The notes beneath the pieces are model-generated. The model was not told the origin of the DNA, made no database searches, and saw only the letters and a list, made by a program, of their open reading frames with translations. Made by a program: the position numbers and the translations under genes. From Entophlyctis helioformis (taxonomy: Eukaryota > Chytridiomycota > Chytridiomycetes > Chytridiales > Chytriomycetaceae), in the NCBI GenBank assembly GCA_025526915.1, contig JAHLKH010000167.1:1-62500 (forward strand): a DNA stretch of 62,500 nucleotides, in the 5' to 3' direction. Positions 1 to 60,100 of the stretch are shown piece after piece. Position 1 is the stretch's first letter, and each line of letters begins with the position of its first letter.

Positions 1-1121
1 GCTGACGGCATCGCCGCCAGACCACTTGCGGCGGTGCTTCATTCGTGTCGACAGTCTCGTACATTGCCATCGCATCCTCGATTGGCATGCCGCGATCCAC
101 AGCAGCAAACAGCTCAGCCGCAACAATGTGAAGCATCTGCATGGCACAGATCTTCCCGCCATCCTGAAGTTCCTTGATCGCTCTTGCTTTCATCTCGCGT
201 TTCAGGTACTCAACCACGTCTGCGCTGACGATCCGTTGCTCGACATCCAGTTCGACGCTATCCTTTCTGGCCTGCTCCACGCCCATTGTCGGCCGCCGTC
301 TCTCGCGTCGCGCTTCGTCAGTCGCATCCTCGGCATCGTCAGGGACCAACTGGAACGTGAACAGATTCTCTTTGCCGACAGTGAGCGTGCGTTGGATCTG
401 GTACAACGACCGCCTCGTTCGCTTGACATTCGCATAGATGTAATGGAATCCATATTGCTTTTCACCAGCTCCTAGAAATATCACTGCTCTTGAGTCGGGT
501 TTTCCGGCCGTGTCTGCCGCCTTGTCCTTCTCGTCATACGTGCCGTCGGTGAACGAGTTGAGATAGCTCGCAGCAGTGAGCAGTTCATCTAGGCCAGCAA
601 AATGCGCTCGCTCTCTGGTGTTCCGCCGCCTTGCACTCTGATCTTGGAGCCGAGGCGTGACAGTATGTCGATCTGCTTGGATGTGAACTGCGGACTGGCG
701 GCTGCATCGGGTCGTATCGACATCGGCATCGGCATCGACATCGGCATCGGCATCCACAGCGATCTCTTGGGTATCTTGAGTGGAAGTCTGTCGCAGCAAA
801 GAGGCGTTCAGGTCAGCCATCAGTGCAAGTGGCGCTGAGTGGACTGTGGTGCTTGCCTTGGCTGCATCGGCTTTGCTGCTGCTTCTGATGCTGTTGGCGC
901 AGTAGCTGTTGGCTGCGCTTGTGCTGCATGTACGCCTTGCTGCCCTTGCCGATGCTGCGTTGAGGGCCGGCTGCCGAGCGACCCACTGATGCTGAGCTGC
1001 TGCCGTCACTGCCACGGCTGTCGTTGTCGTCGTTGTTGTTGTGGGTCTCAGAGTCGGACAGCGGAGGCTCCAGGTCGCTGTACACTGCGGCAATGAGACT
1101 GCTGGTTGCGGTGTCGGTCAT
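1..1121 (-). CDS. IRE1-like kinase/RNase, copy 1: N-terminal part only, truncated by window edge
   Basis: This minus-strand gene starts at 1121 (MTDTATSS...) and runs off the left edge before the kinase domain. It is collinear with the N-terminal part of the copies at 29352-32267 and 40204-43140. Visible parts are an acidic/Ser-rich start, a basic Gln-rich stretch (about residues 55-85), an Asp/Ala repeat (near 710-755), a helix-rich segment beginning SPQFTSKQ, and a conserved block including AMQMLHIVAAEL. Compared with the other copies it has an extra T near 870 and a missing G near 595, and both break the frame. The second is in a short G run, so base-call error is as likely as decay. The segment from about 190 to 840 differs from copy 2 mostly by amino-acid changes. 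Kinase identity comes only from the intact paralogues. Confidence 0.7.
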
Positions 1122-1350
1122 GGCAGGCCGTCTATGTGTGTGCACTTGACGTTGCTGGCTGCTGGCTGCAGGCTGCTGGCTGCTGGCTGGTGCACACTCG
1201 CCGCTGTTGGAGAAGCAAGGGAAGCGAGCGACGCCTCAAATGCCACGGGAATCGGATTTCATTCGAGTGTGCAGTGTGTTGCAGTGAGTGTGCAGTGTGT
1301 GCAGGGGGATATGGACAGGATCGTGCGGTGGCAGTGTGGGCTCGTGGGAT

Positions 1351-1740
1351 CTACGTGGAGGAGACGCTGCCCGCAGTGGTTGGAGTGGCAGAAGCAGGAT
1401 CAGCCGCGACGGTCTCGGCAGCCTTCTTTCTCTGTCCCTTGCCCTTCGATCCCTTCTTGCCTTTCTTGCCCTTCTTGCCTTTCTTGCCCTTTGCCTTGGC
1501 TGTCTTGGTGGCAGCCTTGCCAGCACCGGCGTCGACAGTCGCAGCACCAGCAACCTCGGTCGGCGTCGCGTCGGGAACAGCAGCAGTTGCAGCCACAGTC
1601 GCAGCACGAGCAGCATCACTCGCAGTCGCACCAGAGACAGCAGCGACATCCGACCCAGATCGCTTGTCGTGTGGGATCACCAGTGCCTGCGAAGCGAGTG
1701 CAAGGGTCGACAGAGCGAGGAAGACTGCGTTGAAGTGCAT
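1351..1740 (-). CDS. Small secreted Lys/Ala/Thr-rich protein, copy 1
   Basis: A single-exon protein of 129 residues. The first ~21 residues (MHFNAVFLALSTLALASQAL) form a classic signal peptide, followed by a possible dibasic site (DKR). The mature part is low complexity: an Ala/Thr/Val stretch, then GKK repeats at about residues 84-100, then an Ala/Thr tail ending GSVSST. No known domain is recognisable. Paralogues at 32501-32974 and 39512-39984 have longer Lys repeats and an extra Ala/Pro/Thr segment missing here. A TATA-like box lies about 90 bp upstream, and the leader is rich in CAA/CAAC. It sits upstream of an IRE1-like gene on the same strand in all three copies. An extracellular or cell-wall polycation is a guess. 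Confidence 0.75.
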   Translation of the reverse strand: MHFNAVFLALSTLALASQALVIPHDKRSGSDVAAVSGATASDAARAATVAATAAVPDATPTEVAGAATVDAGAGKAATKTAKAKGKKGKKGKKGKKGSKGKGQRKKAAETVAADPASATPTTAGSVSST

Positions 1741-1830
1741 GTTTGGATGGTTGTCGCTGTGGTTGTCGCTGTGGTTGTTGGTGTTGTTGGTGTGGTTGAT
1801 GGGCAGCAGACAAGGTGGGTCGGCAGCGTG

Positions 1831-1839
1831 CTTTTATGG
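1831..1839 (-). promoter_or_regulatory. TATA-like box of secreted-protein gene, copy 1
   Basis: CCATAAAAG on the minus strand, about 90-100 bp upstream of the start codon at 1740. The same box is kept at the same distance in copies 2 and 3. Confidence 0.6.
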
Positions 1840-2254
1840 AGATCGCAGACGGCCGAGGGAGCCCGCTCGGCACAGCAGCCGCGAGAGCAGCCGCAGCCAG
1901 CGGGACGCGGGCCGAGTGTGGCGCGCTGTGTCTGCCGAGCGCGTCGATTGTGGCGTCGCTTGATTGAGCATCAATGGTCCAAGGGCGACGAGGCCGGCGC
2001 GGGTCACTCTGTGTGAGTGCGCGTCTCTCTCTCTGTCTGTCTGTGTGTGCGAGGGTGCCAGTGTGCCAGGGCGAGTGTGGCCAAAGGGCCGCGTCCATTC
2101 GCAGACGCATCAGCGACTCAATCCATCAACAAGCGAATGTGTTTATTGACAGAGCGGCAAGTGGCATGCGCTCACACACGCCACGCCATCCAATGCACAG
2201 CACCCCATGACGCAGCATAGAAGCATCCCCATGACGCGGCAGCACCCGCACTGC

Positions 2255-5576: not shown

Positions 5577-7130
5577 ATGAGCGAGCGGCCCGTGCGTCTT
5601 GGCTCGCTGCGAGCACCGCGGGTGCGCGGGGCTGCTGCGACGGCTGCGACGAATGCAACGGCTGCGACGGATGGAGCTGCTGCAGACGCTGGCAGCGCTC
5701 ACGATGGAGCCGCTGCGCCAACGGCCGCTGACGGCGCTGCTGTGTCTGCCGGGCCGTCGGCAGCTGCCACGGCACCAAGGCCCAAGGTGCGTTCAAGTGC
5801 ATGCACGCAGGCAGACGCAGGCAGGCAGACGCAGACAGACAGACGCAGACAGACAGACGTTACGTGCTGACTCTGGTGTGCGCTGTCGTGTGTGCAGCCG
5901 ACCGTCGGCCCCAAGTTTGCGCCGACCATTCCGGCCAGACGCACGCGCCGCGAGGCTGCCCTGGAGCCTGCGCCAGCACCGACGCCGGTCGATGACGGTG
6001 CAGGCCGAGGCCGTGGACGCGGACGCGGACGGGGACGTGGCGGGTTCGATGGCGACGGCGGTGGCCGCGGCCGTGGGCGTGGGCGAGGTAGGCGATGCGT
6101 GCGTGCATGGTGATCGTTGGCTGCCGATCGTATGGGTGATCTGACGGGCATCCAATGGACGTGAATGTGGGCATCGATGTGGGCTTACAGGTGCCAGGCC
6201 CGAGGTCCAGGTGACGGCATCAGGCCCGTTCTCGCTCGGCCCTGCTGCCCGAGGTAAGCGTCACAAGCATGCCACTGGGCCGTTCATGCCATGCACGTCT
6301 ACTCATGCAGCCCAATATTCCCACGACAGGCGCAATTGTTGCACCCAGACGCGGCGACATCGCGTCCACATCTGTCCACACGCAGGGCGGCGACAACATG
6401 CTGTACGAGGACGCAGAGGGAGACGATCTGGACGAGGGTCAGGCTACATTCGTTGGCGACATGTGGTCGCCCATTACGATCGACCAGCATCGCCAGTTTC
6501 TGCGCAAGTCGAAGCCCAAGAGCCATGTGCCGAGCATCAAGGGCAAGGGCAAGGAAAAGAGTGAGCGGACGCAGAGGATAGGGTAGATGGAGGAGATGGA
6601 GTGGGCGATGGGCTGACGGATGTGCATGCGGCAGAGGAAGAGGATGTCGACATCAAGATGGAGATGCGTGATGATGTCGGTGGACAGGAGCCTGAGGTCA
6701 TGGACGTGGATCCCGAGGCGTCATCGTCGACAATGGACACGCTGCCTGACGCCCAGCAGGACTCGCTTATTTCTGACTTTGCGCCAGAGCATGTGAGTGT
6801 GCCATCCCACCACGCAGCATCCTGTGTCTTAGCTGGCACGACCGCAATCGTCCACTCACTCGCTTGCCGTGCGGGTAGCTCATGTTTTTCCAACTGCCGC
6901 TGGTGCTGCCGAGTTTCGAGAGCAGCGAAGAGTATCCGCCGCCAGCTGCTGCGTCGGGATCGAGACAAGTGCCTGGCGGCTTGAGCTCGGCGGGGCCTGG
7001 CGGAGCGGCACCTGCTGCCAACACCGCACCGCCCCTGGCGCCAGTTGCGGGCAAGGCAGGCAAGCTTGTGATCCGGCGATCCGGCCGCATGACGCTTCGC
7101 ATGGGCGGTGTCGAGTTTGAGGTCGGTTGG

Positions 7131-7205
<75 letters not shown>

Positions 7206-7418
7206 GCCAGCCTGCCATGCACCTGCGAGCCACACGAGTTGTTCTGTGCGAGCTGACACACGCTGGACGATTGGGGGTGCGGACAGATCAACCACGCGCC
7301 GGTCGCCAACTTTGCACAGAGCATCGCGTACATGGATCCCGAGACGAGCGGCCTGTATTTCCTGGGCGATGTGCAGAACCGCTTCATCTGCACGCCACGC
7401 ATCGACACGCTCGTGTAG
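5577..7418 (+). CDS. RPC53: RNA polymerase III subunit RPC4 (Rpc53)
   Basis: Subunit of nuclear RNA polymerase III, which with Rpc37 acts in termination and reinitiation. Exon 1 (5577-5786) encodes an Ala-rich start (MSERPVRLGSLRAPR). Exon 2 (5898-~6087) carries PTVGPKFAPTIPARR and an RG-rich box typical of RPC4. Later exons give MLYEDAEGDDLDEGQATFVGD, an acidic middle, LMFFQLPLVLPSF, and the C-terminal RPC4 signature KLVIRRSGRMTLRMGGVEFE followed by APVANFAQSIAYMD. The splice phases that were checked (exons 1 to 4) join cleanly. The last intron holds a long TGTC array. The C-terminus is convergent with MIC60, 275 bp away. Confidence 0.92.
7133..7206. repeat. TGTC tetranucleotide array in last RPC4 intron
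   Basis: About 18 near-perfect TGTC units starting within ~10 bp of the 5' splice site of the last RPC4 intron. It takes up most of the intron. Confidence 0.97.
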
Positions 7419-7693
7419 CTGCATGAATGCATGCATGCCTGCCCGCCGTGCTGGCTCCACAAGCAACGAATAATATTCTCGACTGTGCACTCTTTCTTCT
7501 GTTGCTCGTGTTGCGGAGGGCTCAGTGTGCCTCGAATGCAAGTGAGGTAGTATTGTTGTGTTGAGAGGGGGATGGGATCGGGTGATGGATAGAGAGGCGA
7601 GAGGCGAGATGGGGTTGGTGTGAGGGTCGAGATAGAGAGAGAAAGAGAGAGGGGCAGCAAGAACATCCAAAATGCCCAGACAGACACGGTGCA

Positions 7694-10108: not shown

Positions 10109-10406
10109 GGGCGTCTGTCGCACAGCGCACGAGGCGGGACGGGGCGAGGTCAGTGTCCGCTGCCATCTGCGACGCAGCAAAGGGGTTGGCTGGCTGGCTG
10201 GCTGGCCGTGTGCGGTGCGTCTTGCACAGCAGGGCTGCCCACGTAGACGTCGTCGCAGCTGCTCTTGCTTGTGGTGCAGCCTCTGAGGGCCAGCCAGCGG
10301 GGCAGCTTGGCGGGCAGGCAGGCAGGCGGGCAGGCTCTTGCACGGCAGCCGCAGCTCACCTGCAGCAGATCTGTCGCTGAGGTCTTTGCGTTGAAGGCGA
10401 CAAACG

Positions 10407-29300: not shown

Positions 29301-29351
29301 CTCGAATAAACGTCGTCGTTGATGAAAAGAGCGGTTGTGTGGTTTGTATGT

Positions 29352-32267
29352 TCATTGCAGTGGTGCACAGTACGCAGACAGCAGCGAGTCGCTGCGCAGC
29401 GTCTTGCTGCTGGACACTGCGGCATAGCAGTGCAGCAGCAGGAGTGGGAACCGCGTCTCGTAGTACGCCAGCAGTCCGTCTGGCTGCTGTCCGAGCACGG
29501 CCTTGGCTGCGGGTAACAGAGCTTGGAAGTGGTGTTTCTGTCGTGTCATGTTGTTGATGGTGCATGCATGCATGTCAGCAGTCGCAGTCCATCGCACATT
29601 CAGTCACACACACACACACACACGCAGCCACTCGCCTGGTTGCGAAGTGCACGCAGCAGATCCACCACGCTCGTCCCGTCGTATGTGCGGTGCTTGGCGG
29701 CCGCTTCCATCACGCTCGCGTCCATCTTGGCTTGCCAGTCGCTGCCCGTGACTTTGGATCCGCCGCGCTCGATCAACTTGACCAGCGGCGACACGTTGAC
29801 GGCGTCGCGCGGCTCGCTCTCCAGGCGGTCGGATAGGTCGCCAAGGAACGCCAGTCGCTGGCTCGCACTCCAGAAGAACGGATGGTGCAGCACGGCTGTT
29901 GCATCGGGTCTGATGGTTGGTTGGTTGGTTGAGGCTGTCAGTCCACGCCAGCACACACTCTGCCACGCAGAAAGACCGCCAACTCACCGCTTCTTGGCGT
30001 CTGGTGCGATCATGCGTCGGATGACGTCCTTGGCAAGCACGCCTTCTGGCCCAAGTGCGTCCAGTGCATCCAGCCGGTAGTTGCCGCGCATGATGTTGGC
30101 TTCGCACATGAGCTTGTTGCCAAACGGATGCTTGCCTCCCGACAGCACATAGTAGAACACGCAGCCACACGCAAACACGTCCACTGCTCGCGACATGCGC
30201 AGCGTCGAGGATGTCGTCGATGTGTCGGCTGGCGGTGTGTCTGCTGTGGTACATCGGCTGTTGGTGCTTGTGCAGAGTCGTCGTCATCGTCACTGCTTCC
30301 GTCACTCTGTGGGTCGTCGCACGCGTCCATGTCGCCTGCAAGTGCCTCGAGCACCTCGCGTGGCCGCCATCCAGCCGTGCCGCCACCGCGTGCTGCCGTG
30401 TGTGTGAACGACGAATGGTCGTCTGCAAGCCGCTTGCCGAGCCCAAAGTCCGAGATCAGCACACGCGGCCGCGTGTCCTTCTTGCTCTGCGGACCGCCAA
30501 TCAGGATGTTCTGCGGCTTGATGTCGCGATGCACAATCTGCATCGAGTGCAGGTGCTGCACGCCGCACATGGCTTGCTGGAGCACGTCCTTGTGATTCAG
30601 CTGGGATCGCAGCAGAGTGAGTTCGGGAGTGGGCGGCTTCTCGACCAGATCAAACAGTGACGCCTGGCAGAGCTCGAGCGCAATGTACAGGAATCCATCG
30701 TGCTCCTCCTGTCGCATCCATCCAAGCGGGTCAAGCCAGTCCAAGCCTGCCCAAGCGAGTCACGCGAGTGAGCTGATCCATGCCACGCAGTCACGCACGC
30801 AGATCCACAAGCAGTCACGCACCTTGACAAAGTATCGGATCACGTTGGGATGGTGGTCCGACTCTTGCAGGATGCGTGCCTCGTGTTCGGCCGTCTCGTA
30901 GAAATCCGCCAGCATCCGCTTGATGGCCACTGGTCTGTTCTCAAACTGTCCCTTGAACACGACCGTGCCATGGCTGCCATATCCTGTCCGTGCCATCGTC
31001 ATCAACAGCCATGCGTGAGTGTCAGTGCCAGTGGCTGCCATCCAGCCACAGCCATCCATCACTCACCAAGCACTTGGTCTGTCAATGTCAGCGTGTGCAG
31101 TCCAGTCTGGCGAGTGGATGCAACAGGAACCACATCGACTTGATCAGGTGCCAGAGGACCGTAGCTGACGGCATCGCCGCCAGACCCACTTGCGGCGGTC
31201 GCTTCATCGTCGCTGTCGACAGTCTCGTACATTGCCATCGCATCCTCGATTGGCATGCCGCGATCCACAGCAGCAAACAGCTCAGCTGCAACAATGTGAA
31301 GCATCTGCATGGCACAGATCTTCCCCCATCCTGCAGTTCCTTGATCGCTCTCGCTTTCATCTCGCGTTGCAGGTACTCGACCACGTCCGTGCTGACGATC
31401 CGTTGCTCGACATCCAGTTGGACGCTATCCTTTCTGGCCTGCTCCACGCCCATTGTCGGCCGCCGTCTCTCGCGTCGCGCTTCGTCAGTCGCATCCTCGG
31501 CATCGTCAGCGACCAACTTGAGCGTGAACAGATTCTCTTTGCCGATAGCGAGCGTGCGTTGGATCTGGTACAACGACCGCCTCGTTCGCTTGATGTCCGC
31601 ATAGATGTACTGGAATCCGAAATTCTTGTCGTCACCAAGCACCATTGTATACCTCGGCCTAACAATTTCCGGCCGTGTCTGCCGCCTTGCCCATCTCATC
31701 AAACGTGCCGTCGGTCACATAGTTGAGAGTGGTTGCCGCCATGAGCAGTTCATGGATACCAAGGAAAATGCGCTCGCTCTCTGGTGATCCGCCGCCTTGC
31801 ATGTCGATCTTGGAGCTGAGACGTAACAATATGTCGATCTGCTTGGATGTGAACTGCGGACTGGCGGCTGCATCGGCATCGGCGTTGGCGTTGGCATCCG
31901 CATCCGCAGCGATCTCTTGGGTATTTTGAGTGGAAGTCTGTCGCAGCAAAGAGGCGTTCAGGTCAGCCATCAGTGCAAGTGGCGCTGAGTGGACTGTGGT
32001 GCTTGCCTTGGCTGCATCGGCTTGCTGCTGCTTCTGTTGTTGACGCAGCAGCTGTTGGCTGCGTTTGCGCTGCATGTACGCCTTGCTGCCCTTGCCGATG
32101 CTGCGCTGAGGGCCGGCTGCCGAGCGACCCACTGATGCTGAGCTGCTGCCGTCACTGCCACGGTTGTCGTTGTCGTCGTCGTTGTTGTGGGTCTCAGAGC
32201 CAGATAGCGCAGGCTCCAGGTCGCTGTGCACTGCGGCAATGGGACTGCTGGTTGCCGTGTCGGTCAT
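29352..32267 (-). CDS. Soluble IRE1-like kinase + KEN endoribonuclease, copy 2 (with apparent frameshifts)
   Basis: This gene encodes the effector half of IRE1 joined to a non-IRE1 N-terminus. Kinase motifs: GYGSHGTVVFKG (P-loop), VAIKRML, HRDIKPQNIL, DFGLGKRL and GTAGWRPREV. The KEN RNase part is DGTSVVDLLRALRNQ-KHHF, then YYETRFPLLLLHCYAAV, keeping the Arg-Asn and His-His of the IRE1 active site. There is no signal peptide, luminal beta domain or membrane segment: the ATG at 32267 opens an acidic/Gln-rich stretch and an unrecognised ~250-residue region. Against the other copies it lacks one base near 31325, one near 30255 and has a shift near 31668, so as written it is broken. Dictyostelium has IRE1-like kinases without sensors, a possible analogy. 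Confidence 0.85.
29538..29635 (-). other. GC-AG intron inside the KEN RNase domain, copy 2
   Basis: The exon ends AACCAG and the next bases are GCGAGT instead of GT; the acceptor is ACGACAG before AAACACCAC. Only this junction gives RNQ-KHHF, aligned residue for residue with known IRE1 KEN domains. Copy 3 has the same non-GT donor (42865-42954). Confidence 0.75.
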
Positions 32268-32500
32268 GGCAGGCCGTCTATGTGTGTGCACTTGACGTTG
32301 CTGGCTGCTGCCTGGCTGCCTGGCTGCTGGCTGGTGCACACTCGCAGCTGTTGGAGAAGCAAGGGAAGCGAGAGACGCCTCAAGTGCCACGGGAATCGGA
32401 TTTCATTCGAGTGTGTGTGCAGTGTGTGCAGTGTGTGTGCAGTGTGTGTGCAGGGGGAATATGGACAGGATCGTGCGGTGGCGGGGTGGGCTCATGGGAT

Positions 32501-32974
32501 CTACGTGGAGGAGACGCTGCCTGCAGTGGTGGTAGAGGGATCGGCAGCAGGCGTGGCAGCAGGCGTGGCGGACTCGGAGGAAGGCACGGCCGTGGCAGCA
32601 GCAGGATCAGCCGCGACGGTCTCGGCAGCCTTCTTTGTCTGTCCCTTGCCCTTCATGCCCTTCTTGCCCTTCTTGCTCTTCATGCTCTTCTTGCCCTTCT
32701 TGCCCTTCTTGCCCTTCTTGCCCTTTGCCTTGGCTGTCTTGGTGGCAGCCTTGCCAGCACCGGCGTCGACAGTCGCAGCACCAGCAACCTCGGTCGGCGT
32801 CGCGTCGGGAACAGCAGCAGTTCCAGCCACAGTCGCAGCACCAGCAGCATCACTCGCAGTCGCACCAGAGACAGCAGTGACATCCGACCCAGATCGCTTG
32901 CCGTGTGGGATCACCAGTGCCTGCGAGGCCAGTGCAAGGGCCGACAGAGCGAAGAAGACTGCGTTGAAGTGCAT
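32501..32974 (-). CDS. Small secreted Lys/Ala/Thr-rich protein, copy 2
   Basis: The longest intact copy: one exon, 157 residues. The signal peptide (MHFNAVFFALSALALASQAL) is followed by IPHGKRSGSD, an Ala/Thr/Val stretch with two repeats of the VAGAATV type, and a polybasic block of GKK, SMK and GMK units (about residues 84-112). A tail rich in Ala, Thr, Pro and Ser follows. Relative to copy 1 it has an extended Lys block and an added Ser/Ala/Thr/Pro segment. No cysteine and no known domain are visible. The gene lies 233 bp upstream of the IRE1-like start on the same strand, with its own TATA-like box. Confidence 0.8.
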   Translation of the reverse strand: MHFNAVFFALSALALASQALVIPHGKRSGSDVTAVSGATASDAAGAATVAGTAAVPDATPTEVAGAATVDAGAGKAATKTAKAKGKKGKKGKKGKKSMKSKKGKKGMKGKGQTKKAAETVAADPAAATAVPSSESATPAATPAADPSTTTAGSVSST

Positions 32975-33064
32975 GTTTGGATGGTTGTTGTTGTTGTGGT
33001 TGTTGGTGTTGTGGTTGTTGTGGTGTTGGTTGATGGGCAGCAGACAAGGCGGGTCGGCAGCGTG

Positions 33065-33073
33065 CTTTTATGG
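33065..33073 (-). promoter_or_regulatory. TATA-like box of secreted-protein gene, copy 2
   Basis: CCATAAAAG on the minus strand about 90-100 bp before the start codon at 32974, in an otherwise GC-rich upstream region shared by all three copies. Confidence 0.6.
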
Positions 33074-33493
33074 AGATCGCAGACGGCCAAGGGAGCCCGC
33101 TCGGCACAGCAGCCGCGAGAGCAGCCGCAGCCAGCGGGACGCGGGCCGAGTGTGGCGCGCTGTGTCTGCCGAGCGCGTCGATTGTGGCGCCGCTTGATTG
33201 AGCATCAATGGTCCAAGGGCGACGAGGCCGGCGCGGGTCACTCTGTGTGAGTGCGCGTCTCCCTCTCTCCCTCTGTGTGTGCGTGCAGGGTTCAGGGTGC
33301 CAGGGCGAGTGTGGCCAAAGGGCGCGTCCATCCACAGACGCATCAGCGACTCAATCAATCAACAAGCAAATGTGTTCATTGACAGAGCGGCAAGTGGCAT
33401 CGCAGCGTCACACACGCCACGCCATCCAATGCACAGCAGCACCCCCATGACGCAGCATAGAAGCACCCCCATGACGCGCAGCACCCGCACCGC

Positions 33494-38139: not shown

Positions 38140-39082
38140 ATGCCGATGGACGCTCATGTACACACAGACGCTCGCACAGACGCCCCAAGGCCGCACGGGC
38201 CGCGCATGGCCAAGCTCGTGCGCGCGGTCGACCATGCGCTGCAGGCGGTGCTCAAGGACTGCAGGTGCTGTCTGCATCCCGCCCGTGCTGCGCCTGCCCC
38301 CGCCCCTGCCACGCACCACTCACCCGCACGCCGGCTTGTGCATGCCCCGCCGTGCCTGCAGCGACGCAAAGTTCGCCCAGAGCTTCCCGCAGCTCGCCCG
38401 CGACAACCCCGTGGCGCTGGCACAGGCCCGCCAGGACGTCGTGGCCCAGTTCCAGGCGTCGGTGATGGTGCGTTGCGTCTGCCGTGCCTGCCGTGCCTGC
38501 CGTGCCTGCCGTGCCTGCTGTGCCTTGTGGCCCACCCCTCGACTCACCGCTCGCCACTCGACGCACAGAGCTCCTTTGACAAGCTGGTGTCGGACAGGCA
38601 GATTGACGCGCGGCTCAACGACCTGGACGTGCTGATCGAGGCCGCACGGCAACGGCCGGCTGCCTCGTACTCTGGGCCGTGAGTCCAACCGTGTCTGTGC
38701 ACCTGCCAGATGTGGACTGACCGAGTGCGTTTGTGCAGACCGCCGGCGCCGCAGGACATTGCGACGGTGCGGCGATACAACGCCAAGCTGCTGGAACGCA
38801 AGCGCCTGCTCGACAAGCTCACAGCCGTGAGTGTCTGCATCCGTGCAACACGAGGCCCGGCTGCTGATGCGTGGCTGCTGCTGTGCGTGGCTGCTGGTGC
38901 GTGGCTGACCGCGCTTTGCATTGGCACCGCAGATCTCGGCAGACAATGACGTGCAGATCCGCCGTGTCAAGCTCAAGCAGGACCACTTGCGTCGCATGAT
39001 GGCGCATCTGCGCGAGAAGCGGGCTGCCGTCCTGCCTGCTCAGCAGCCGCTGTCGTTTGACGCCGACAACCGCTTGCTATGA
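38140..39082 (+). CDS. NNF1: Kinetochore MIND/Mis12-complex subunit NNF1 (PMF1 family)
   Basis: Helical subunit of the kinetochore complex joining centromeric chromatin to the Ndc80 complex. Five exons are read. Exon 1 starts MPMDAHVHTDARTDA and runs to AVDHALQAVLKDC. Exon 2, after a CAG acceptor, reads SDAKFAQSFPQLARDNPVAL then ARQDVVAQFQASV. Exon 3 reads SSFDKLVSDRQIDARLNDLD and VLIEAARQRPAA. Exons 4-5 add coiled-coil and end SFDADNRLL. The combination KFAQSFPQLAR... / DARLNDLDVLIEAA matches the Nnf1 family pattern. Introns contain CCTGCCGTG and CTGCTG repeats. It shares a 114-bp divergent spacer with the ENTH gene. Identification is by pattern, so less certain than its neighbours. Confidence 0.75.
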
Positions 39083-39417
39083 CGCTGCGCTGCCACTTGT
39101 CGATCTGTCAATGAACACATTCGCTTGTTGATTGATTGAGTCGCTGATGTGTCTGTGGATGGACGCAGCCCTTTGGCCACACTCGCCCTGGCACCCTGGA
39201 ACCCTGGCACGCACACACAGAGGGAGAGGGAGACGCGCACTCACACAGAGTGACCCGCGCCGGCCTCGTCGCCCTTGGACCATTGATGCTCAATCAAGCG
39301 ACGCCACAATCGACGCGCTCAGCAGACACAGCGCGCCACACTCGGCCCGCGTCCCGCTGGCTGCGGCTGCTCTCGCGGCTGCTGTGCCGAGCGGGCTCCC
39401 TTGGCCGTGTGCGATCT

Positions 39418-39426
39418 CCATAAAAG
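39418..39426 (+). promoter_or_regulatory. TATA-like box of secreted-protein gene, copy 3
   Basis: CCATAAAAG, 86 bp upstream of the ATG at 39512. Between them lies a leader ending in CAA/ACAACAACA repeats directly before the start codon, a context common for strongly expressed fungal genes. Confidence 0.6.
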
Positions 39427-39511
39427 CACGCTGCCGACCCGCCTTGTCTGCTGCCCATCAACCACACCAACAAACACCAACAACCACAACAACAACAACA
39501 AACATCCAAAC

Positions 39512-39984
39512 ATGCACTTCAACGCAGTCTTTTCGCTCTGTCGGCCCTTGCACTCGCTTCGCAGGCACTGGTGATCCCACACGGCAAGCGATCAGGGTCG
39601 GATGTCGCTGCTGTCTCTGGTGCGACTGCGAGTGATGCTGCTGGTGCTGCGACTGTGGCTGGGACTGCTGCTGTTCCCGACGCGACGCCGACCGAGGTTG
39701 CTGGTGCTGCGACTGTCGACGCCGGTGCTGGCAAGGCTGCCACCAAGACAGCCAAGGCAAAGGGCGCAAAGGGCAAGAAGGGCAAGAAGAGCAAGAAGGG
39801 CATGAAGAGCAAGAAGGGCAAGAAGGGCAAGAAGGGCAAGGGACAGACAAAGAAGGCTGCCGAGACCGTCGCGGCCGATCCTGCTGCTGCCACGGCCGTG
39901 CCTCCCTCCGAGTCCGCCACGCCTGCTGCCACGCCTGCTGCCGATCCCTCTACCACCACTGCAGGCAGCGTCTCCTCCACGTAG
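39512..39984 (+). CDS. Small secreted Lys/Ala/Thr-rich protein, copy 3 (one-base deletion in signal peptide)
   Basis: Same protein as copies 1 and 2. Relative to copy 2, one C is missing near 39531 (TCTTCTTC reads TCTTTTC), which breaks the frame inside the signal peptide. From about 39545 the reading frame is open to the stop and encodes ALVIPHGKRSGSD, the Ala/Thr stretch, a Lys block of GKK, SKK and GMKSKK units, and the Ser/Ala/Thr tail ending GSVSST. Promoter box and leader are intact, so a consensus error is as likely as inactivation. The IRE1-like copy 3 start follows 219 bp downstream. Confidence 0.7.
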
Positions 39985-40203
39985 ATCCCACGAGCCCACC
40001 CCGCCACTGCACGATCCTGTCCATATCCCCCTGCACACACTGCACACACACTGCACACTCGAATGAAATCCGATTCCCGTGGCATTTGAGGCGTCGCTCG
40101 CTTCCCTTGCTTCTCCAACAGCTGCGAGTGTGCACCAGCCAGCAGACGGCAGCCAGCAGACAGCAGACAGCAACGTCAAGTGCACACACATAGACGGCCT
40201 GCC

Positions 40204-43140
40204 ATGACTGACACCGCAACCAGCAGTCTCATTGCCACAGTGCACAGCGACCTGGAGCCTCCGCCGTCTGGCTCGGAGACCCACAACGACGACAACGACA
40301 GCCGTGGCAGTGACGGCAGCAGCTCAGCATCAGTGGGTCGCTCGGCAGCCGGCCCTCAGCGCAGCATCGGCAAGGGCAGCAAGGCGTACATGCAGCACAA
40401 GCGCAGCCAACAGCTGCTGCGTCAACAACAGAAGCAGCAGCAAGCCAATGCAGCCAAGGCCAGTTCTGCCTGGACCCTTGAATTCATGCTGTGACGTTGA
40501 TCCGTGGCTGATACGTGGCAACACAGACACCAGCCGCCGACCTCGCAAGCCCGCAGTTCACGCAAAAACAGCTGGCCATCATGACATATCTCTCCAACAA
40601 GGTCATGGCGTCACCACCAGGCTCGGCTGAAAGCGAACGACTTCTCGACGGCCTTAACGAGCTCATCATGTTTGTTGACTACTTCTACGCGGCGTTCGGC
40701 AGGCCAACAAGGCTCCTCACGCCAGAGGACTTCACCAAGATCGGCATTAGTCAAGACGCAACACAGCTGGCCGATCCGTCTGATCCAAACTCGGGCCCAC
40801 GGCAGTACGTAAGGACGCAGTACATGAAACTCACGACTGACGAGTGGCAGAATGTGGGCCAGTACTACTCGCTCGACTATCGTGTGTGGCTTCCTCAGCG
40901 CGTCTGGCCGGTCGGCGCCAAGAAGGCGTACCGGACGGCTCGCACGATATACGAAAAGACAATCGGCACAAAGCATGATCATACATTCATATTCCATTCG
41001 ACCGACGAGGATTCGGATGCACCTGACGAAGCAAGACGCGAGAGACGCAAGCCGCGGATGAGCAAGGAAGGAGACGTCGATGTCGAGAAACGAGTGGTTA
41101 GCGCGGATGTGATTGAGTATCTGAAACGCGAGACGAGAGCAAGGGCGATCAAGGAACTGCAGGATGGCGGGAAGATCTGTGCCATGCAGATGCTTCACAT
41201 TGTTGCGGCTGAGCTGTTTGCTGCTGTGGATCGCGGCATGCCAATCGAGGATGCGATGGCGATGTACGAGACTGTAGACAGCGACGATGAAGCGACCGCC
41301 GCAAGTGGGTCTGGCGGCGATGCCGTCAGCTACGGTCCTCTGGCACCTGATCAAGTCGATGTGGTTCCTGTTGCATCCACTCGCCAGACTGGACTGCACA
41401 CGCTGACATTGACAGACCAAGTGCTTGGTGAGTGATGGATGGCTGTGGCTGGACGGCAGCCACTGGCACTGACACTCACGCATGGCTGTTGATGGCGATG
41501 GCATGGACAGGATATGGCAGCCATGGCACGGTCGTGTTCAAGGGACAGTTTGAGAACAGACCAGTGGCCATCAAGCGGATGCTGGCGGATTTCTACGAGA
41601 CGGCGGAGCACGAGGCACGCATCCTGCAAGAGTCGGACCACCATCCCAACGTGATCCGATACTTTGTCAAGGTGCGTGACTGCTTGTGGATCTGCGTGCG
41701 TGTGACTGTCTGCGTGGCATGGATCAACTCACTCGCGTGACTCGCTTGGGCTGGCTTGGACTGACTTGACCCGCTTGGATGGATGCGGCAGGAGGAGCAC
41801 GATGGATTCCTTTACATTGCGCTCGAGCTCTGCCAGGCTCGCTGTTTGATCTGGTCGAGAAGCCGCCCACTCCCGAACTCACTCTGCTGCGATCCCAGCT
41901 GAATCACAAGGACGTGCTCCAGCAAGCCATGCGCGGCGTGCAGCACCTGCACTCGATGCAGATTGTGCATCGCGACATCAAGCCGCAGAACATCCTGATT
42001 GGCGGTCCGCAGAGCAAGAAGGACACGCGGCCGCGTGTGCTGATCTCGGACTTTGGGCTCGGCAAGCGGCTTGCAGACGACCATTCGTCGTTCACACACA
42101 CGGCAGCGCGCGGTGGCGGCACGGCTGGATGGCGGCCACGCGAGGTGCTCGAGGCACTTGCAGGCGACATGGACGCGTGCGACGACCCACCGAGTGACGG
42201 CAGCAGTGACGATGACGACGACTCTGCACAAGCACCAACAGCCGATGTATCCACAGCAGACGCACCGTCAGCCGGCACATCGACGACATCCTCGACGCTG
42301 CGCATGTCGCGAGCAGTGGACGTGTTTGCGTGTGGCTGCGTGTTCTACTATGTGCTGTCGGGAGGCAAGCATCCGTTTGGCAACAAGCTCATGTGCGAAG
42401 CCAACATCATGCGCGGCAACTACCGGCTGGACGCACTGGATGCACTTGGGCCAGAAGGCGTGCTTGCCAAGGACGCCATCCGACGCATGATCGCACAAGA
42501 CGCCAAGAAGCGGTGAGTTGGCAGTCTGTCTGAGTGGCAGAGTGTGTGCTGGCATGGACTGACAGCCTCAACCAACCAACCAACCATCAGACCCGATGCA
42601 ACAGCCGTGCTGCACCATCCGTTCTTCTGGAGTGCGAGCCAGCGACTGGCGTTCCTTGGCGACCTGTCCGACCGCCTGGAGAGCGAGCCGCGCGACGCCG
42701 TCAACGTGTCGCCGCTGGTCAAGTTGATCGAGCGCGGCGGATCCAAAGTCACTGGCGGCGACTGGCAAGCCAAGATGGACGCGAGCGTGATGGACGAGGC
42801 GGCCAAGCACCGCACATATGACGGGACGAGCGTGGTGGATCTGCTGCGTGCACTGCGCAACCAGGCGAGTGGCTGCATGTGTGTGTGACTGAATGTGCGA
42901 TGGACTGCGACTGCTGACGTGCATGCATGCACCACCAACAACACGACACGACAGAAACACCACTTCCAAGCCCTGCCGCCTGCAGCCAAGGCCGTGCTCG
43001 GACAGCAGCCAGACGGACTGCTGGCGTACTACGAGACGCGGTTCCCACTCCTGCTGCTGCACTGCTACGCCGCGGTGTCCAGCAGCAAGACGCTGCGCAG
43101 CGACTCGCTGCTGTCTGCGTACTGTGTATCATCGCAATGA
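40204..43140 (+). CDS. Soluble IRE1-like kinase + KEN endoribonuclease, copy 3
   Basis: Starts MTDTATSS, as do copies 1 and 2. After the Gln-rich stretch (about residue 90) a probable intron at about 40464-40531 leads to a long open exon (to 41427) encoding the N-terminal region. That region is very different from the other copies between SPQFTQKQ and the conserved KELQDGGKICAMQMLHIV block. Then intron 41428-41510 and the kinase: LG-YGSHGTVVFKG, VAIKRML, HRDIKPQNIL, DFGLGKRL, GTAGWRPREV, MSRAVDVFACGCVFYYVLSG. The KEN RNase is LLRALRNQ-KHHF, RFPLLLLHCY, across a GC-AG intron at 42865-42954. One base is missing near 41843 (ELCQASLFD in copy 2). No signal peptide or membrane segment; only 219 bp separate its ATG from the upstream stop. 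Confidence 0.88.
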
Positions 43141-43240
43141 ACATACAAACCAATACCAGCACCATGACCAGTCGCAGTCGCAGTCGCAGTCGCAGTCTTC
43201 TTACAGTTGCCCCCTGTTCTGCACACGCGCGACTGCCGCC

Positions 43241-51153: not shown

Positions 51154-54100
51154 ATGTTCGGCAAGCTGCTGCGCAGGCGACGGGCGAGCAAGGCCGCCAA
51201 GGCTGCTGCTGCTGGCACAGACGACAAAGGCACAGACACAGACGCGAGCCGCTCGGACCGGCCGCAGGCGGTCGCCGCCTTGATGGACGAGCTCGTCGAC
51301 CTTGCCGTGCAGAGTGCACCCAGTGAGCACGCGCGTGCGGCGGCTGTGCGTTGGGCCGCATGCATCCCTCGGCTGACTTGTGCCGTGTCGGGCCCGTCCG
51401 CCAGGCGTCGGCGGCATGTTCGGCTATCCCAAGTACCAGGACGAGGTCTTCAACGTCTCCGAGTCGTTTGTGGCCGCGTCGCTGGCCAGGTCCAAGGCCA
51501 TCCTCGCGCAGGCCGAGGTGCTGGACGCTGCGACGCTCTCGGCGGCAGACCTTGCGGGCGTTGCGCTCATCAAGAGCATGGTCCACGACGTGCTGCTCAC
51601 GGTGCAGGGCTACGACCGCGAGATCCCCTGCCAGCACATGTTTGGCGCTTTCTCGTCCTTTGACCTGGACATCACCAGGTGCGTCCTCCGTGCCTCGACG
51701 GACTCCACCTGCAAGATCTCTGATGTCGGCACCTCTTTGGGCCCACAAAGTCCGACATTCGAGATGTGATCACGCCCACTGTGCCGGCTGCCCTGTCTGC
51801 AACTGACATGCTGGATCTGGACGTCTGCAGCTACCAGCAGCTCAGGAACGCCAAGGACGCCGAGAACTACGTCTCTCGCCTCTCCAAGACACCCGAGCGC
51901 TTCAACGACTGCATCATCGCGTTCCGTGCTGGTATTGAGGCTGGCATCACGCTGCCTGCCGAGTCGATCAAGCTCATGATTGAAAAGTGCAACAACATGG
52001 CCGTTGAAGATCCCACCACCAGCCTGTTCTTCACCGAGTTCAAGGACAAGATCGCTGCCGTCGGTCTTCCCGAGGACTACCTTGTGCCTGTGATCCGCGA
52101 CAGCCTCGTGCCTGCATACAAGGCTGTTGCCGCGTTCCTTGAGACTGAGTATCTCCCGCACGCACGCAAGAACCCTGGCATCTACGGTCTGCCCGACTAC
52201 GAGCGTGTGTACAACGACCTGATCTACCTCAACACGACCACTCGCTACACGGCCGAAGAGCTGCACCAGATTGGTCTCAATGAGGTGTCGCGGATCCGTG
52301 CACGCATGGAAGCCATCAAGGACGAGACCAAGTTTGACGGCTCTCTTGCCGAGCTGTTCGAGGCTCTCAAGGACCGCAAACGCTTCCCTCAACTGTACCT
52401 TGCATCCGAGGATGACTATGTGCCGCACTACAAGTCCCTCATCGAACGCATTGGCAAGACAATGCCCGAATACTTTAGCAAGTTCCCCAAGTTTGCTTGT
52501 GGCGTGGAGGCTGTGGCCAAGGCAGCGGAATCTTCGTCGCCGACCGCCATGTACCAGCCTGGCACGCCCGAGAAGCCCGGCACGTTCTTTGCAAACGTTG
52601 CCATTGCCAAAAGCTCGCCCATGCATACTGCCATGGCGCTCACGCTCCACGAGGCAATCCCAGGCCACCACCACCAGGTGTCGCTGGCGTTTGAGAAGCC
52701 AGAGCAGCACCTTCTTTTCAAGTTGGCCAACTACACCGCGTTTGACGAGGGCTGGGGTCTCTACGCCGAGTATCTTGGCGAGGGTAAACGCGCGCAGCTT
52801 TCACGCTGATCCATGTCGTGCACCTGGCTGACATCATGCACTCGACAGAGATGAAAATGTACGACACGCCACTCGATCTTCTTGGCCGTCTTGAGATGGA
52901 GATGTTCCGCGCTCTGCGGCTTGTGGTCGACACGGGTCTTCACACCAAGGGATGGACCGTCGACCAGTCTGTCCAGTACATGAGCGAGCATGTGTCCATG
53001 TCGCACCAGAAGCTGCTCAACGATGTCAAGCGCTACTCGATCATGCCCGGCCAGGCCCTTGCCTACAAGGTCGGTGAGATCAAGATCCGCGAGGTGCGCA
53101 AGTACGCCGAGGAGCAGCTTGGCACCAAGTTCAACATCCGCGACTTCCACGATGTTGTGCTTGACTCTGGGTCGGTGCGTCTCGAGACTCTCGAGGCCAA
53201 TGTCAAGAACTGGGTCGAGACCATCAAGTGCAAGCCCAAGAACAAGGCATACTTCATTCTCAGATCTGTCATGGATGACTATGTCGACCTTGTCTTCCGC
53301 TCGTCTCCAGGTGGGCCGCTATTGCCACTCTGTGGTTTGATGCTCGTTGCTGAATCCAACCGACTGACACGATGGACAGTTGAGGGCGTCATCTTTGACT
53401 ACCCCAAGTACCAGGACGAGATCTTCAATGTGTCAAAGGCGGCCACCGACCGCGAGCTTGAGAAAGTGCACGAGTCGCTCGCCATCCTGGACAGCCTTGA
53501 TGTCGCCGAGCTGAATGCTGAGGAGATCAACGATCTTGGTCTTCTGCGTGGCTGCTTCAACGAGATTCTTCTTCGCAACTCTTGCTGGGGATACGAGATT
53601 CCGTGCACGCACATGGACAACGCCTTTGCCCAGCTTGACATGAGCATTCTTCCGTATGTGATCACGCCCATTGTGCCGGCTGCCCTGTCTGCAACTGACA
53701 TGCTGGATCTGACGTCTGCAGCTACCAGCAGCTCAGGAACGCCAAGGACGCCGAGAACTACGTCTCTCGCCTCTCCAAGACACCCGAGCGCTTCAACGAC
53801 TGCATCATCGCGTTCCGTGCTGGAATTGCGGCTGGCATCACGCTGCCTGCCGAGTCGATCAAGCTCATGATTGAAAAGTGCAACAACATGGCCGTTGAAG
53901 ATCCCACCACCAGCCTGTTCTTCACCGAGTTCAAGGACAAGATCGCTGCCGTCGGTCTTCCCGAGGACTACCTTGTGCCTGTGATCCGCGACAGCCTCGT
54001 GCCTGCATACAAGGCTGTTGCCGCGTTCCTTGAGACTGAGTATCTCCCGCACGCACGCAAGAACCCTGGCATCTACGGCCTGCCCGACTACGAGCGTGTG

Positions 54101-55201
54101 TACAACGACCTGATCTACCTCAACACGACCACTCGCTACACGGCCGAAGAGCTGCATCAGATCGGTCTCAATGAGGTGTCGCGGATCCGCAAGCGCATGG
54201 AAGCCATCAAGGACGAGATGTTTGAAGGCACATTCGCCGAGTTCCTCGATGCGCTCAAGGACCGCAAACGCTTCCCACAGCTTTTCCTCGACACGGAAGA
54301 CGAGTTTATCCCGTACTACAAAGCCATGATCAAAGTGAGCAGGCTTCTGCTGACTCGGTGCGTGAGGGCACGGTTACTGACGCGACATGCCATCGTAGCG
54401 TATCAACACAAAGATGCCCAAGTTCTTCAACAAGTTCCCCAAGTTCCAGTGTGACGTGCAGGCTGTCCCCAAAGCCGCCGAAGAGTCGGCTCCCGTGGCG
54501 TACTACCAGGCTGGCACGGCCGACCAGCCCGGCGCATTCTTGGCCAACATCGGTCTGTCCAAGGCGTCTCCTATCCACAGTGCGATGGCCCTCACGCTCC
54601 ACGAGGCCATTCCTGGCCACCACCACCAGATTTCGCTGGCCAACGAGCGCGTCACCAGCCATCTGTTCTACAAGCTGTCCGAGTACACTGCATATGACGA
54701 GGGATGGGGTCTCTACTCAGAGTTCCTTGGCGAAGGTGAGTGAGTGGCGTTGGTGCCACGTTCGAAGCGCAAGCCGATTGCAACCGACTGACCATGCTCT
54801 GGCCAACCGCCATAGAGATGAAAATGTACGACACTCCACTCGATCTTCTCGGCCGTCTCGAAATGGAAATGTTCCGTGCGCTGCGTCTTGTCGTTGACAC
54901 GGGCCTTCATGCCAAGGGATGGTCGATTGACGACTGCGTCAAGCTCATGAGCGAGAATCTCTCCATGTCGGCTGAAGAGACGCTCAGCGAGGTCAAGAGA
55001 TACACGATTCTCCCCGGCCAGGCTCTTGCGTACAAGGTCGGCGAGATCAAGATCCGCGAGCTGCGCAAGCATGCAGAGACGATTCTTGGAGAGCGGTTTG
55101 ACATCCGTGGGTTCCATGACGTGCTGCTGGACTCTGGATCGGTGCGACTCGAGACGCTGGAAGCCAATGTCGAGGCTTGGATCGCGGGTGTCAAGGCATA
55201 G
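51154..55201 (+). CDS. Double DUF885 protein (two tandem metallopeptidase-like domains)
   Basis: One gene with two complete DUF885 units. Exon 1 encodes a basic start (MFGKLLRRRRASKAAKAA). Unit 1 begins GYPKYQDEVFNVSESF and has the putative metal motif HEAIPGHHHQ, DEGWGLYAEYLGE and EMKMYDTPLDLLGRLEMEMF. It ends DYVDLVFRSSP without a stop and splices (intron about 53310-53379) into unit 2: FDYPKYQDEIFNVSKA, HEAIPGHHHQ, DEGWGLYSEFLGE, ending AWIAGVKA. DUF885 proteins are mainly bacterial and uncharacterised; the HExxxH-like motif suggests a hydrolase. One G is missing near 53711 relative to unit 1, and the junction near 51679-51763 has no clean acceptor in phase. A bacterial origin is possible but unproven. 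Confidence 0.85.
51766..52326 (+). repeat. Near-identical ~560-bp patch, unit 1 of DUF885 gene
   Basis: Matches 53658-54217 almost base for base (from VITPxVPAALSATDML to EVSRIR and MEAIKDE), while sequence on both sides differs clearly between the two units. The offset changes from 1892 to 1891 at the missing base near 53711. Confidence 0.9.
53658..54217 (+). repeat. Near-identical ~560-bp patch, unit 2 of DUF885 gene
   Basis: Partner of 51766-52326; see that entry. The patch lies wholly within coding sequence. Confidence 0.9.
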
Positions 55202-57108: not shown

Positions 57109-60100
57109 CTAAGCCAGCTTGAATGTGAATGTCTTGCTGAGCACACGCTTGATCTTGGCTACAAAACTCTTTCCTGCGGGCTTGATGTCATGGGGTTCAG
57201 TCACAGTCGCGGCGTTTGCAGGCTGGATGCCGTTGTCCTTGGCAGGAAGCACGCTTGTTGCCATGGGCTGGTCGGCAGCAAGTCCCATCATGGTACGGAT
57301 AGCAGCAGCAAAGGCCACAGCAAACTCGCCGTCGCGTGGAATGTCGTGGCCAGCGTCGTGCTCAAGCATCATGCACATGTCGGCTCGGTACGAGCTGCGC
57401 AGTCCGGTTCGGAACACTTGCTCTTCGTTGGTGCCAAATGCGTGGATGGACGGGATGCTGACAGTCGCATGGGCAGATGACACGAGCGACGACTTGGTGG
57501 AGGCTGGACCAGAGAAAAGAGCACTGAACTTCCATGTGCGCTGGATCTTGCCCTTGTGTGCAAGCTGGTCGAGCATCTCGACGACCATGGCGCCTTGCGA
57601 GAAGCCGAGCAGACCGTCGATGGGACCAAGAGACGCAGGCTTCCATGACATTTTGGACACAGCGCGTTGGTATCAGCTTTGTGGTGAACAGAGACTGCGG
57701 AACCACTCGAACCACTCCATATCGGGATAGATCTCACTCATCGCTGTGGCGATGATAGAAGAGTGTCAGTTGCAGGATAGAAGCATGCATCATCAGACTC
57801 AGGAGACTTACGTGACGATGACGTCTTGAAGGGTGCTTGGATGAACACAAACTCGATGTTGTCGCCAAAGTGTGCCTTGAGACCGGACAGCTGGAACTCC
57901 ATGTGGACGGGGTTGGATGCCTGGCCGTGGAGACAGGCGATACGGATGACATTCGTGTTGCTGCTCTCATCCTCGATGGAACTCTTGCGTTCAGCTGGAA
58001 GAACGGCCCTGGTGAGCAGTCCAAGTGTTGGATGCTTGAAGACGGTCTGCAGGGACAGAGTCGGGCAGTCAAAGGCAGACTGGATCTTGCGGACGAGAGC
58101 AATCGCGTTCAAGGAGTTGCCACCGAGTGCAAAGAACGACGTGTTGCGGCCAATCGACTCGACCGGCACACCAAGCACATCGGCCCACACGGCGGCCATG
58201 CGCATCTCGGCATCGCTCGACAGGCTCTCGACGACAATCACAACGTCCATGGCGGCGAGTGCCTTCTTGTCCGTCTTGCCGTTGGCGTTGGTCGGCATGG
58301 CGTCCAGTCCCACAAACACGGCCGGCACCATGTACGCTGGCAGGTGCTCGGACACCACATCGCGCAGCTCGTCGGCATCAATGTCGGCTGGTGTCACAAA
58401 GCCAACCAGATGCGTCTTGTCCTTGACAATGCTGCCGCCCCGTCACACGCGGATGCTTCATCAATGCGGCTGCAACCTCGTCCAGCTCAATGCGGTATCC
58501 CTTGAGCTTGACCTGGTCGTCACGGCGTCCGATGATCTCGAAGCGGCCGTCGGGAAGCATGCGTCCGAGATCGCCCGTCTTGAACATGCGGCTGCCACAC
58601 TTGGCTGCAAACTCGCCGCTCGCAAACGGATCGGCCAGGAACTTGTCGGCCGTCATCTCGGGAAGGTTGATGTATCCAGGCGACACGCCAATGCCGCCAA
58701 GAACATCTCGCCCATCACACCAGCAGGCACGCGGCGCTGCTGCTCGTCAAGGATGTACGACGCCATGTTCGGGAGAGGGCCGCCGATTGTCACATCTGCA
58801 GTCGGTGAAAGAATCGCTGCATGTGAGATGAGTGTGATCTCCGTCGGTCCATAGAAGTTGGCGAGCTGCGCTTCTTGCGACCACAGATCCTTGAGCTTCG
58901 CGGGACACGATTCGCCACTGACGGTCAGCGTCTTGATGTTTGGGAACTGCGAAGGCGAGCCGAGATGCGATAGACCGGTTGGCGTGATGATGAGTGCGTC
59001 GACTGACGCTGCTGTCTTGAACGCGTCCTCTTCGCGGAGCACAAGAGTGCAGCCGTGGGTCAAAGCAGACCAGGTCTCGCGTTGGCAGGCGTCGAAGCCG
59101 ATGGCCATGAACTGCGCAACTCGGTATCCAGGCTGCAATCCCATCAGCCGAGCGGTGAATGCGACGACGTTGACAACACCGGCGTGCGGCACTGGCACTC
59201 CCTTGGGATTGCCCGTCGAGCCTGATGTGTACACGATCATGAACACATCCGATCGAGATGCGGCGTGCTTCATGTCAGCCGATGCCTGGAATGCGACAAC
59301 AGCCTTGGTTGATGCCGCTGCCTTGAGATTATCGGCCGACACCATCACAACTCGCACGGTGGATGGCAGCTGCAGCTTGTCAATGTGCTCTTGTTCAGAC
59401 TCGGTCGACAGCACAACCGTCACGCCGGCATCGGCGAGAATGAACCGGATGCGCTCGGCTGGGAACTTGGAGTCGAGCGGCACAATCGTCGCGCCGGTCT
59501 TGAGCACAGCGAGCAGTGCAAGCGGGAACTCGAGGCATCGCTGCATGATCACTGCGACGCGCGAGCCAACGCCAATGCCGCCAAGTGCGACGATCTGGTT
59601 GGCAAGCAGAGTGCCGCACTTGTCCAGTTCGCCATACGTGATCGACTCGTCGCCGTACTCGACGGCCGTCCAGTCGGGATGCTCGGCAGCGACTGCCTCG
59701 AAGCCGTGGTGCACTGCCTCGTATGGCAGATCCACGAGTGGTCCGAAGCTGTGTGCATCGAGCAGCTGTGTCTGGGCAAGTGACAGATCCCAAAGCGGCT
59801 CGATCGACGACTGAGATGCGACTGCAGATGCAAGCTGGCCGACCGTGAAGTCAAACTCAGCCAGGATCGACGACGCCTGCGTGTGCGACAGCTGTCCAAA
59901 GTCACGCTTCGCCGTCCATGTGAAGCCGTCAGAGTGCGGGAACAGGATCAGCTCAAAGTCGTACGCATTTGACCGCGACGATCCTTGTGATCCAACTTGG
60001 CTGAACGGCAGCTTGGAGCCAGCGTCGCCTGACAGACGGTCGTCCTCTGGCAGGTTCTCAAACAAAAACAGTGTCTGGAACAGCCTGGCGTCCGATGCAA

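Follow-up and report, generated by a model that had tools for sequence, protein, structure and literature searches.

An IRE1-like kinase/RNase cassette family with a divergent orphan N-terminal domain in the chytrid Entophlyctis helioformis

The question raised by this locus is whether a divergent stretch set between near-alike flanks in an IRE1-like kinase/RNase gene of Entophlyctis helioformis is a diversifying sensor linked to a conserved effector, or a passive product of gene conversion in a decaying family. The window analyzed here is the 62,500-nucleotide stretch C167:1-62500, in which a first-pass annotation had described three copies of a cassette joining a secreted-protein gene to the kinase/RNase gene. 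All three are present (c1, c2 and c3), but the genome holds six, the others lying on two other contigs: one on contig C207 (hereafter C207) and two on contig C134 (C134a and C134b). Genome searches covered the 29.57-Mb, 482-contig assembly, and cassette counts are to be read as lower bounds. A DNA search with the lysine-rich (K-rich) secreted-protein gene retrieved all six cassettes; a search with the kinase-RNase part retrieved the five cassettes having that part and two genes on contig C1. Genome-wide, PF06479 (the RNase of IRE1 and RNase L) yielded 14 exon-level matches, located in the true IRE1 gene on C1, an adjoining soluble relative (C1b), c3, c2, C207, C134b and C134a. The features of the window are as follows:

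39080..43152, + strand: cassette c3 (K-rich secreted-protein gene and soluble IRE1-like kinase/RNase gene), delimited by BLAST to c2
39512..39984, + strand: c3 gene for the lysine-rich secreted protein (473 bases, a length not divisible by 3)
40204..40462, + strand: conserved 5' exon of the c3 kinase gene (MTDTATSS...; ~86 codons)
40463..40533, + strand: probable c3 intron between the conserved exon and the variable domain (our GT-AG choice)
40534..41140, + strand: variable domain of c3 (40464-41135 in the first-pass annotation)
41141..41427, + strand: homogenized linker up to the kinase, c3
41511-41671 and 41792-42512 (span 41511..42512), + strand: kinase exons, c3
42591-42864 and 42955-43140 (span 42591..43140), + strand: KEN RNase exons, c3 (PF06479 matches at 42643-42867 and 42952-43089)
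29340..33410, - strand: cassette c2 (variable segment ~31353-31984)
1..2171, - strand: cassette c1, truncated by the contig start ahead of the kinase (variable segment ~186-834)

The public gene model P0121 shares the start Met of the conserved 5' exon of c3 and places the boundaries of the probable intron a few bases off 40463/40533, with the frame unchanged.

C207 encodes an unbroken protein of 841 residues in five exons, and C1b a protein of 782 residues. Both display an N-terminal region followed by an IRE1-type kinase and a KEN RNase; PF00069 matches the C1b kinase exon, and among solved structures C1b has its best match in IRE1 (chain 2rio_A, which we take to be yeast IRE1). The kinase VAIK, HRD and DFG motifs and the KEN RN..HH motif are kept in all five copies with a 3' half, when read through frame breaks. 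No membrane-span-like stretch was found in C207 or C1b (top 19-residue hydropathy of 1.27 and 1.31, respectively), nor did any lumenal sensor match in Pfam above cut-off in the N-termini of the c3 open reading frame, C1b or C207. The gene upstream of C1b, in which a signal peptide, a lumenal region and a hydrophobic stretch were recognized by eye, was therefore taken to be the ordinary IRE1. While they share kinase and KEN RNase with the ER-stress kinase/RNase of fungi and animals, the cassette proteins are, as judged from the sequences of C207 and C1b, IRE1 paralogues devoid of a lumenal sensor and membrane span, and further differ from IRE1 in their orphan variable N-terminal domain and their multiple copies.

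In a tree of 37 proteins (35 of the 120 retrieved, plus C207 and C1b; c1, c3 and C134a not included), the cassettes, C1b and a paralogue from Batrachochytrium salamandrivorans grouped in one clade (91/99, the tool's mark for strong support being 95/80) that sits beside the canonical IRE1 of related chytrids. The longer model of the B. salamandrivorans paralogue matches only kinase and RNase in Pfam, in a setting where gene models can be truncated. On this topology, the soluble paralogue may predate the divergence of the E. helioformis and Batrachochytrium lineages. Residues 140-640 of C207 are 44-58% identical to chytrid matches outside E. helioformis. Two B. salamandrivorans models, P0005 and P0007, are IRE1 paralogues without a recognized lumenal domain and fall in the same clade as C1b; this species also has a canonical IRE1 (P0010).

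The limits of the divergent segment and the likeness of its flanks, as given by the first-pass annotation, were both borne out. The aligned segments of c2 (~31984-31353) and c1 (~834-186) lie close to those it had proposed, and in a window BLAST the alignment of c3 stopped at 40463 and restarted at 41015, with nothing alignable in between at the settings used, the flanks on either side being 94.1% (39080-40463) and 94.7% (41015-43152) identical to c2, and 87.1% and 85.0% identical to c1. In a six-copy DNA alignment scored in 100-column windows, the segment, whose core of ~92 codons runs from ASPIF to ADIK in C207, was far more divergent than the flanks in all six copies, the dip in identity, within the kinase gene, spanning alignment columns ~1500-2300. 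In columns 1500-2100, c3 shared 43-56% identity with the other five, against mostly 81-100% in the flanks (overall ~50% in the segment, and ~94% with c2 in the flanks). The five non-c3 copies were 56-87% identical to one another in columns 1800-2000 and mostly 90-100% identical in the flanks, except in the adjoining block of columns 2100-2300 (75-98%) and where C134a and C134b are truncated at the 5' end. Hypervariability limited to c3 was thus ruled out, the divergence peak also existing among the other five, with c3 as the outlier of the six. An unrelated insertion in c3 was likewise ruled out, the segment being a homologous version of one domain. Its homology to the C1b protein is weak (50 of 180 aligned positions identical; 21-24% for the other five copies). 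Within the 10-kb repeat carrying C134a and C134b, the domain is the most substituted of eleven 1-kb windows (94 substitutions, compared to 4-40 in the others).

Codon counts, from which any codon containing a gap, stop or frame break was excluded, gave pairwise dN of 0.16-0.27 and dS of 0.18-0.45 in the core of the five copies other than c3; in the kinase, pairwise dN was 0.006-0.018 and dS 0.034-0.102. Pairwise omega among the five was 0.47-1.18 in the core, with dN/dS below 1 in nine of the ten pairs, and 0.08-0.27 in the kinase. The block to the right of the core (TMAV to IHQ) showed dS of 0.20-0.67 and omega of 0.17-0.64 among the same copies. Between c3 and the others, core dN reached 0.66-0.82, with a dS of 1.69 in one of the five pairs and saturation in the other four. 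The claim that c1 and c2 differ there mostly by amino-acid changes holds for raw counts (41.6 nonsynonymous versus 18.4 synonymous), but per site dN (0.231) is lower than dS (0.389). Since dS in the core is raised alongside dN, part of the divergence is age; on these counts, the segment predates its flanks and is also proportionally richer in amino-acid change, age and selection being mixed.

Maximum-likelihood codon models (M0, M1a and M2a; our own script) were fitted to the core, using the kinase, RNase and 5' flank as control regions. Under M0, omega was 0.76 (five copies) or 0.57 (six copies) in the core, 0.17 in the kinase, 0.28 in the RNase and 0.34 in the 5' flank. Passing from M1a to M2a, a model that assumes a single tree and that recombination or misalignment can mislead, yielded a 2dlnL of 25.9 in the unmasked core of five copies and of 12.1 once the six codons to either side of each frame break were masked. 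Other subsets of the core gave 11.2 (without C134a), 15.0 (without C134a but with c3), 9.4 (without the indel-rich centre) and 8.0 (without the centre and C134a); the controls gave 0.5 (kinase), 0.0 (5' flank) and 5.6 (RNase, borderline). None of 48 null simulations under the fitted M1a reached 12.1, the maximum being 6.7. The selected site class had an omega of ~4-11 in masked subsets, about half of the core codons had an omega close to 0 in the main fits, and in the masked fit the posterior exceeded 0.7 at seven core sites, variable core sites being interleaved with invariant ones. Flagged model residues 43, 50 and 54 have the spacing i, i+7, i+11 on predicted helix 36-60 and would share one helix face. 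The codon models support selected sites in the core and not in the kinase or 5' flank. An elevation of dN/dS confined to the N-terminal segment, as the first-pass annotation had anticipated, is thus seen at the level of sites under M2a but not overall, where omega stays below 1, and with the RNase borderline. A dN/dS above 1 across the whole segment was not found; nor was dN/dS well below 1 throughout, the outcome named as speaking against selection (pairwise omega 0.47-1.18; M0 0.76).

The copies have a mosaic history. In FastTree reconstructions, the c3 branch measured 0.70 in the core versus 0.026 in the 5' flank, 0.006 in the kinase and 0.025 in the RNase, and the branching order of the copies changed from segment to segment. 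In a permutation test, c3 and c2 shared an over-long run at the segment's right-hand edge (columns 2267-2297; matched in 0 of 2000 permutations), the runs of c3 with C207 (0.086), C134b (0.15) and C134a (0.12) not being significant in the same test; the truncated c1 was left out of this test and of the kinase/RNase tests. Six pairs without c3 were also significant, with their longest runs in or beside the core, and were discounted because the divergence of c3 makes nearly every core column polymorphic. Homogenization of the flanks by conversion, the process first proposed, is compatible with the mosaic of segment and flanks and with a significant run in one of four c3 pairs. The mosaic could have arisen in two ways, by conversion of the flanks onto an old gene or by transfer of an old core into a young cassette. 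A search of the assembly for a donor of the c3 core found none.

AlphaFold2 modeled the C207 domain (eleven rows) with a mean pLDDT of 74.5 (64.5-74.5 across five models) and a pTM of 0.73 as an alpha/beta arrangement of three helices, four strands, a helix, two strands and three helices. The c3 prediction (pLDDT 52.7) has outer elements resembling those of C207 and low confidence over residues 61-141. No fold match at E <= 0.001 was returned from PDB or BFVD, and no Pfam family matched the domain in the c3 open reading frame or C1b (searched to E 1; best E 0.33-0.58, below cut-off) or the C207 N-terminus at E 0.01. The C1b N-terminus had no homologue at E <= 0.1 among 7990 scored candidates. 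The domain profile (A2) retrieved four proteins at E <= 1, all from E. helioformis, in a word-based search limited by protein length; Rfam gave no match in the window. The segment is accordingly described as a predicted folded domain found only in E. helioformis: the structure prediction suggested for it yielded a putative alpha/beta fold, but no recognized ligand fold.

The K-rich secreted gene adjoins the kinase gene in all six cassettes. It is intact in c2, c1 and C207, one base short in c3 and devoid of its 5' part in C134a and C134b, and is 87-100% identical among c1, c2, c3 and C207 in DNA windows 500-1000. None was matched beside C1b in a search that skips simple repeats, the nearest match on C1 being 69 bases long and ~270 kb away. 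A second, acidic secreted gene lies downstream of the kinase in three cassettes, with the promoter and signal peptide of the K-rich gene and a different mature part, a case of signal-peptide/promoter reuse:

C207:20074-20553: acidic secreted gene
C134:62034-62513: acidic secreted gene
C134:about 4342-4821: acidic secreted gene

Contig C134 contains a 10-kb inverted repeat (1-10218 versus 56633-66889, 95.2%), the edge of which coincides with that of a block shared at 98.6% between C207:31947-42377 and C134:66891-77335; repeat and block may be structural variants, haplotypes or misjoins. Elsewhere in the window, a tandem gene duplication at 51764-55174 (93% identity in the first 0.7 kb and 73% in the next 0.75 kb) is another pair with an abrupt change of identity, its first copy matching DUF885 (PF05960), and 58114-62500 holds NRPS-type genes (condensation, AMP-binding and carrier domains) with an internal repeat of 84% (58114-59212 / 61403-62500).

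The many paralogues expected of a sensor family come down to a small repertoire of six cassettes, and in this assembly the kinase-gene frame is unbroken in one of the six, C207; c1 is both truncated and broken. In the N exon, frame breaks number none in C207, none in c3 (intron left out; a single apparent break sits at the trimmed edge of the exon), two in c2, three in C134b, four in c1 (the last at the cut end) and 16 plus one stop in C134a. Gap runs in the kinase/RNase exons number one each in c3 and c2, none in C207 and C134b, and four in C134a. A one-base deletion after 41838 breaks the c3 kinase frame, and the c3 secreted gene is one base short in its signal-peptide codons, its frame from the ATG closing after 20 codons. 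These breaks reflect either decay or consensus error. Contig-end quality found no support as their sole cause, as c3, c2 and C134b, inside contigs, also carry breaks; of the 24 one-base gaps that the C134 repeat shows on the C134a side, 12 are located in alignment columns 1000-2000, away from its end. Copy-private changes in kinase plus RNase (nonsynonymous:synonymous) were 3:1 in c3, 7:5 in c2, 6:3 in C207, 9:6 in C134b and 1:2 in C134a, or 26 replacement and 17 silent in total for a neutral replacement share of 0.72; recent changes in this part look near-neutral. The RNases of C207 and C134b share a Tyr to Phe change, presumably at a catalytic Tyr, and C207 also has Lys changed to Asn next to the HH pair. 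Public models break around frameshifts: c3 appears as the partial 318-aa P0121 and C207 as the 474-aa P0003, although the spliced frame of C207 is open over 841 aa (affected regions, window 39512-43140 and C207:16719-19637).

How are these observations best explained? The leading but unproven reading, to which we give an even chance, is that of a diversifying RNase L-like intracellular sensor family evolving by birth and death. What had been proposed of a diversifying part and a conserved effector agrees with the variable, folded-looking domain, the conserved kinase/RNase, the mosaic history and the selected sites; sensing stays putative. A serious rival, which we find quite possible though short of probable, is a passive mosaic: an old duplicate, c3, and younger duplicates would share flanks by gene conversion that stops where sequences are too different to pair, around a fast, weakly constrained domain, most copies being pseudogenes and none engaged in recognition. 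Raised dS in the core (with saturation in four of the five c3 pairs), frame breaks in five of six copies, near-neutral private changes, the c3-c2 run at the segment's right edge and the 5'-truncated K-rich gene of C134a and C134b all fit with this; yet this reading sits ill with a site class at omega ~4-11 in masked subsets that none of 48 null simulations matched, with about half of the core codons near omega 0, which argues for constraint, and with a kinase pairwise dN/dS of 0.08-0.27.

That the cassette is instead selfish or toxin-antidote-like, its RNase and linked secreted genes spreading by duplication and its domain pairing with a partner inside the cassette, seems improbable. Linkage of the K-rich gene in six of six cassettes (5'-truncated in two) and the acidic gene after the kinase in C207, C134a and C134b would suit such an element, but the K-rich gene changes little between copies and so does not co-vary with the domain, and it has no match beside C1b. 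More improbable still is an assembly artefact, with c3 a chimera or collapsed repeat and single-base indels as consensus errors. Two of six copies (c1 and C134a) do lie at contig ends, C134a has its 16 N-exon breaks, and the 98.6% C134/C207 block ends at a repeat edge; however, at least ~19 kb separate c3 from each end of the window, its segment stays open for 306 codons and is homologous both to the remaining copies and to C1b, P0121 crosses the junction and the divergence peak recurs among the other copies. Misassembly of c3 is thus unlikely.

Under the sensor reading, E. helioformis would possess a small family of cytosolic IRE1 paralogues in which an orphan folded N-terminal domain diversified while the kinase-RNase tail and 5' flank were kept alike, most simply by ectopic recombination. 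The pattern resembles that seen in recognition proteins, with a tail kept alike and one front domain diverging fast. In IRE1 and RNase L, the joining of two kinase-RNase tails switches on RNA cleavage; by analogy, the cassette domain would bind a variable ligand or partner and binding would bring two tails together, turning on cleavage. The family would evolve by birth and death, under which several copies would be decaying. We consider doubtful, as a whole, the bolder proposal that this fungus independently evolved an RNase L-like surveillance system, in which an IRE1 kinase-RNase freed from the ER would have acquired a new diversifying recognition domain of unseen fold, recombination shuffling conserved tails onto divergent sensors to make a small mosaic repertoire.

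RNase L combines an ankyrin 2-5A sensor with a pseudokinase. Its soluble order of N-domain, kinase and KEN RNase is shared by C207 and C1b, and sensing followed by dimerization is the model proposed here by analogy; the cassette kinase, in contrast, keeps its motifs, and no ankyrin repeats were matched (E up to 1 for the c3 open reading frame and C1b, 0.01 for the C207 N-terminus). Fungal NLR/HET nonself-recognition genes likewise join a conserved effector to a variable recognition part, as the cassettes do; no NB-ARC/NACHT or HET domain was matched by Pfam in the N-termini scanned (c3 open reading frame, C1b and C207). Arabidopsis IRE1C is, like the cassette proteins, an IRE1 paralogue without a sensor domain, and shows more divergence between species than IRE1A/B; it is a plant gene, for which the parts of the source available mention neither a variable replacement domain nor flank homogenization (PMC6788458). 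The KEN RNase has multiplied independently in Oikopleura and monocots, where it is described, in the portion of the source available, as separate from the kinase (PMC3710099), whereas the cassettes keep kinase and variable domain together with it. No earlier description of this soluble IRE1 cassette family was found in the open-licence literature searched.

The tree points to a clade of soluble IRE1 paralogues in some chytrids. The cassettes provide a clear case of a domain with a history older than its homogenized flanks, and would do so even with most copies in decay. If the sensor reading is true, a soluble IRE1-type RNase driven by a sensor would have arisen a second time, apart from RNase L of vertebrates, in early-diverging fungi, a group with poorly known antiviral and nonself defences, and the domain would represent a new recognition fold.
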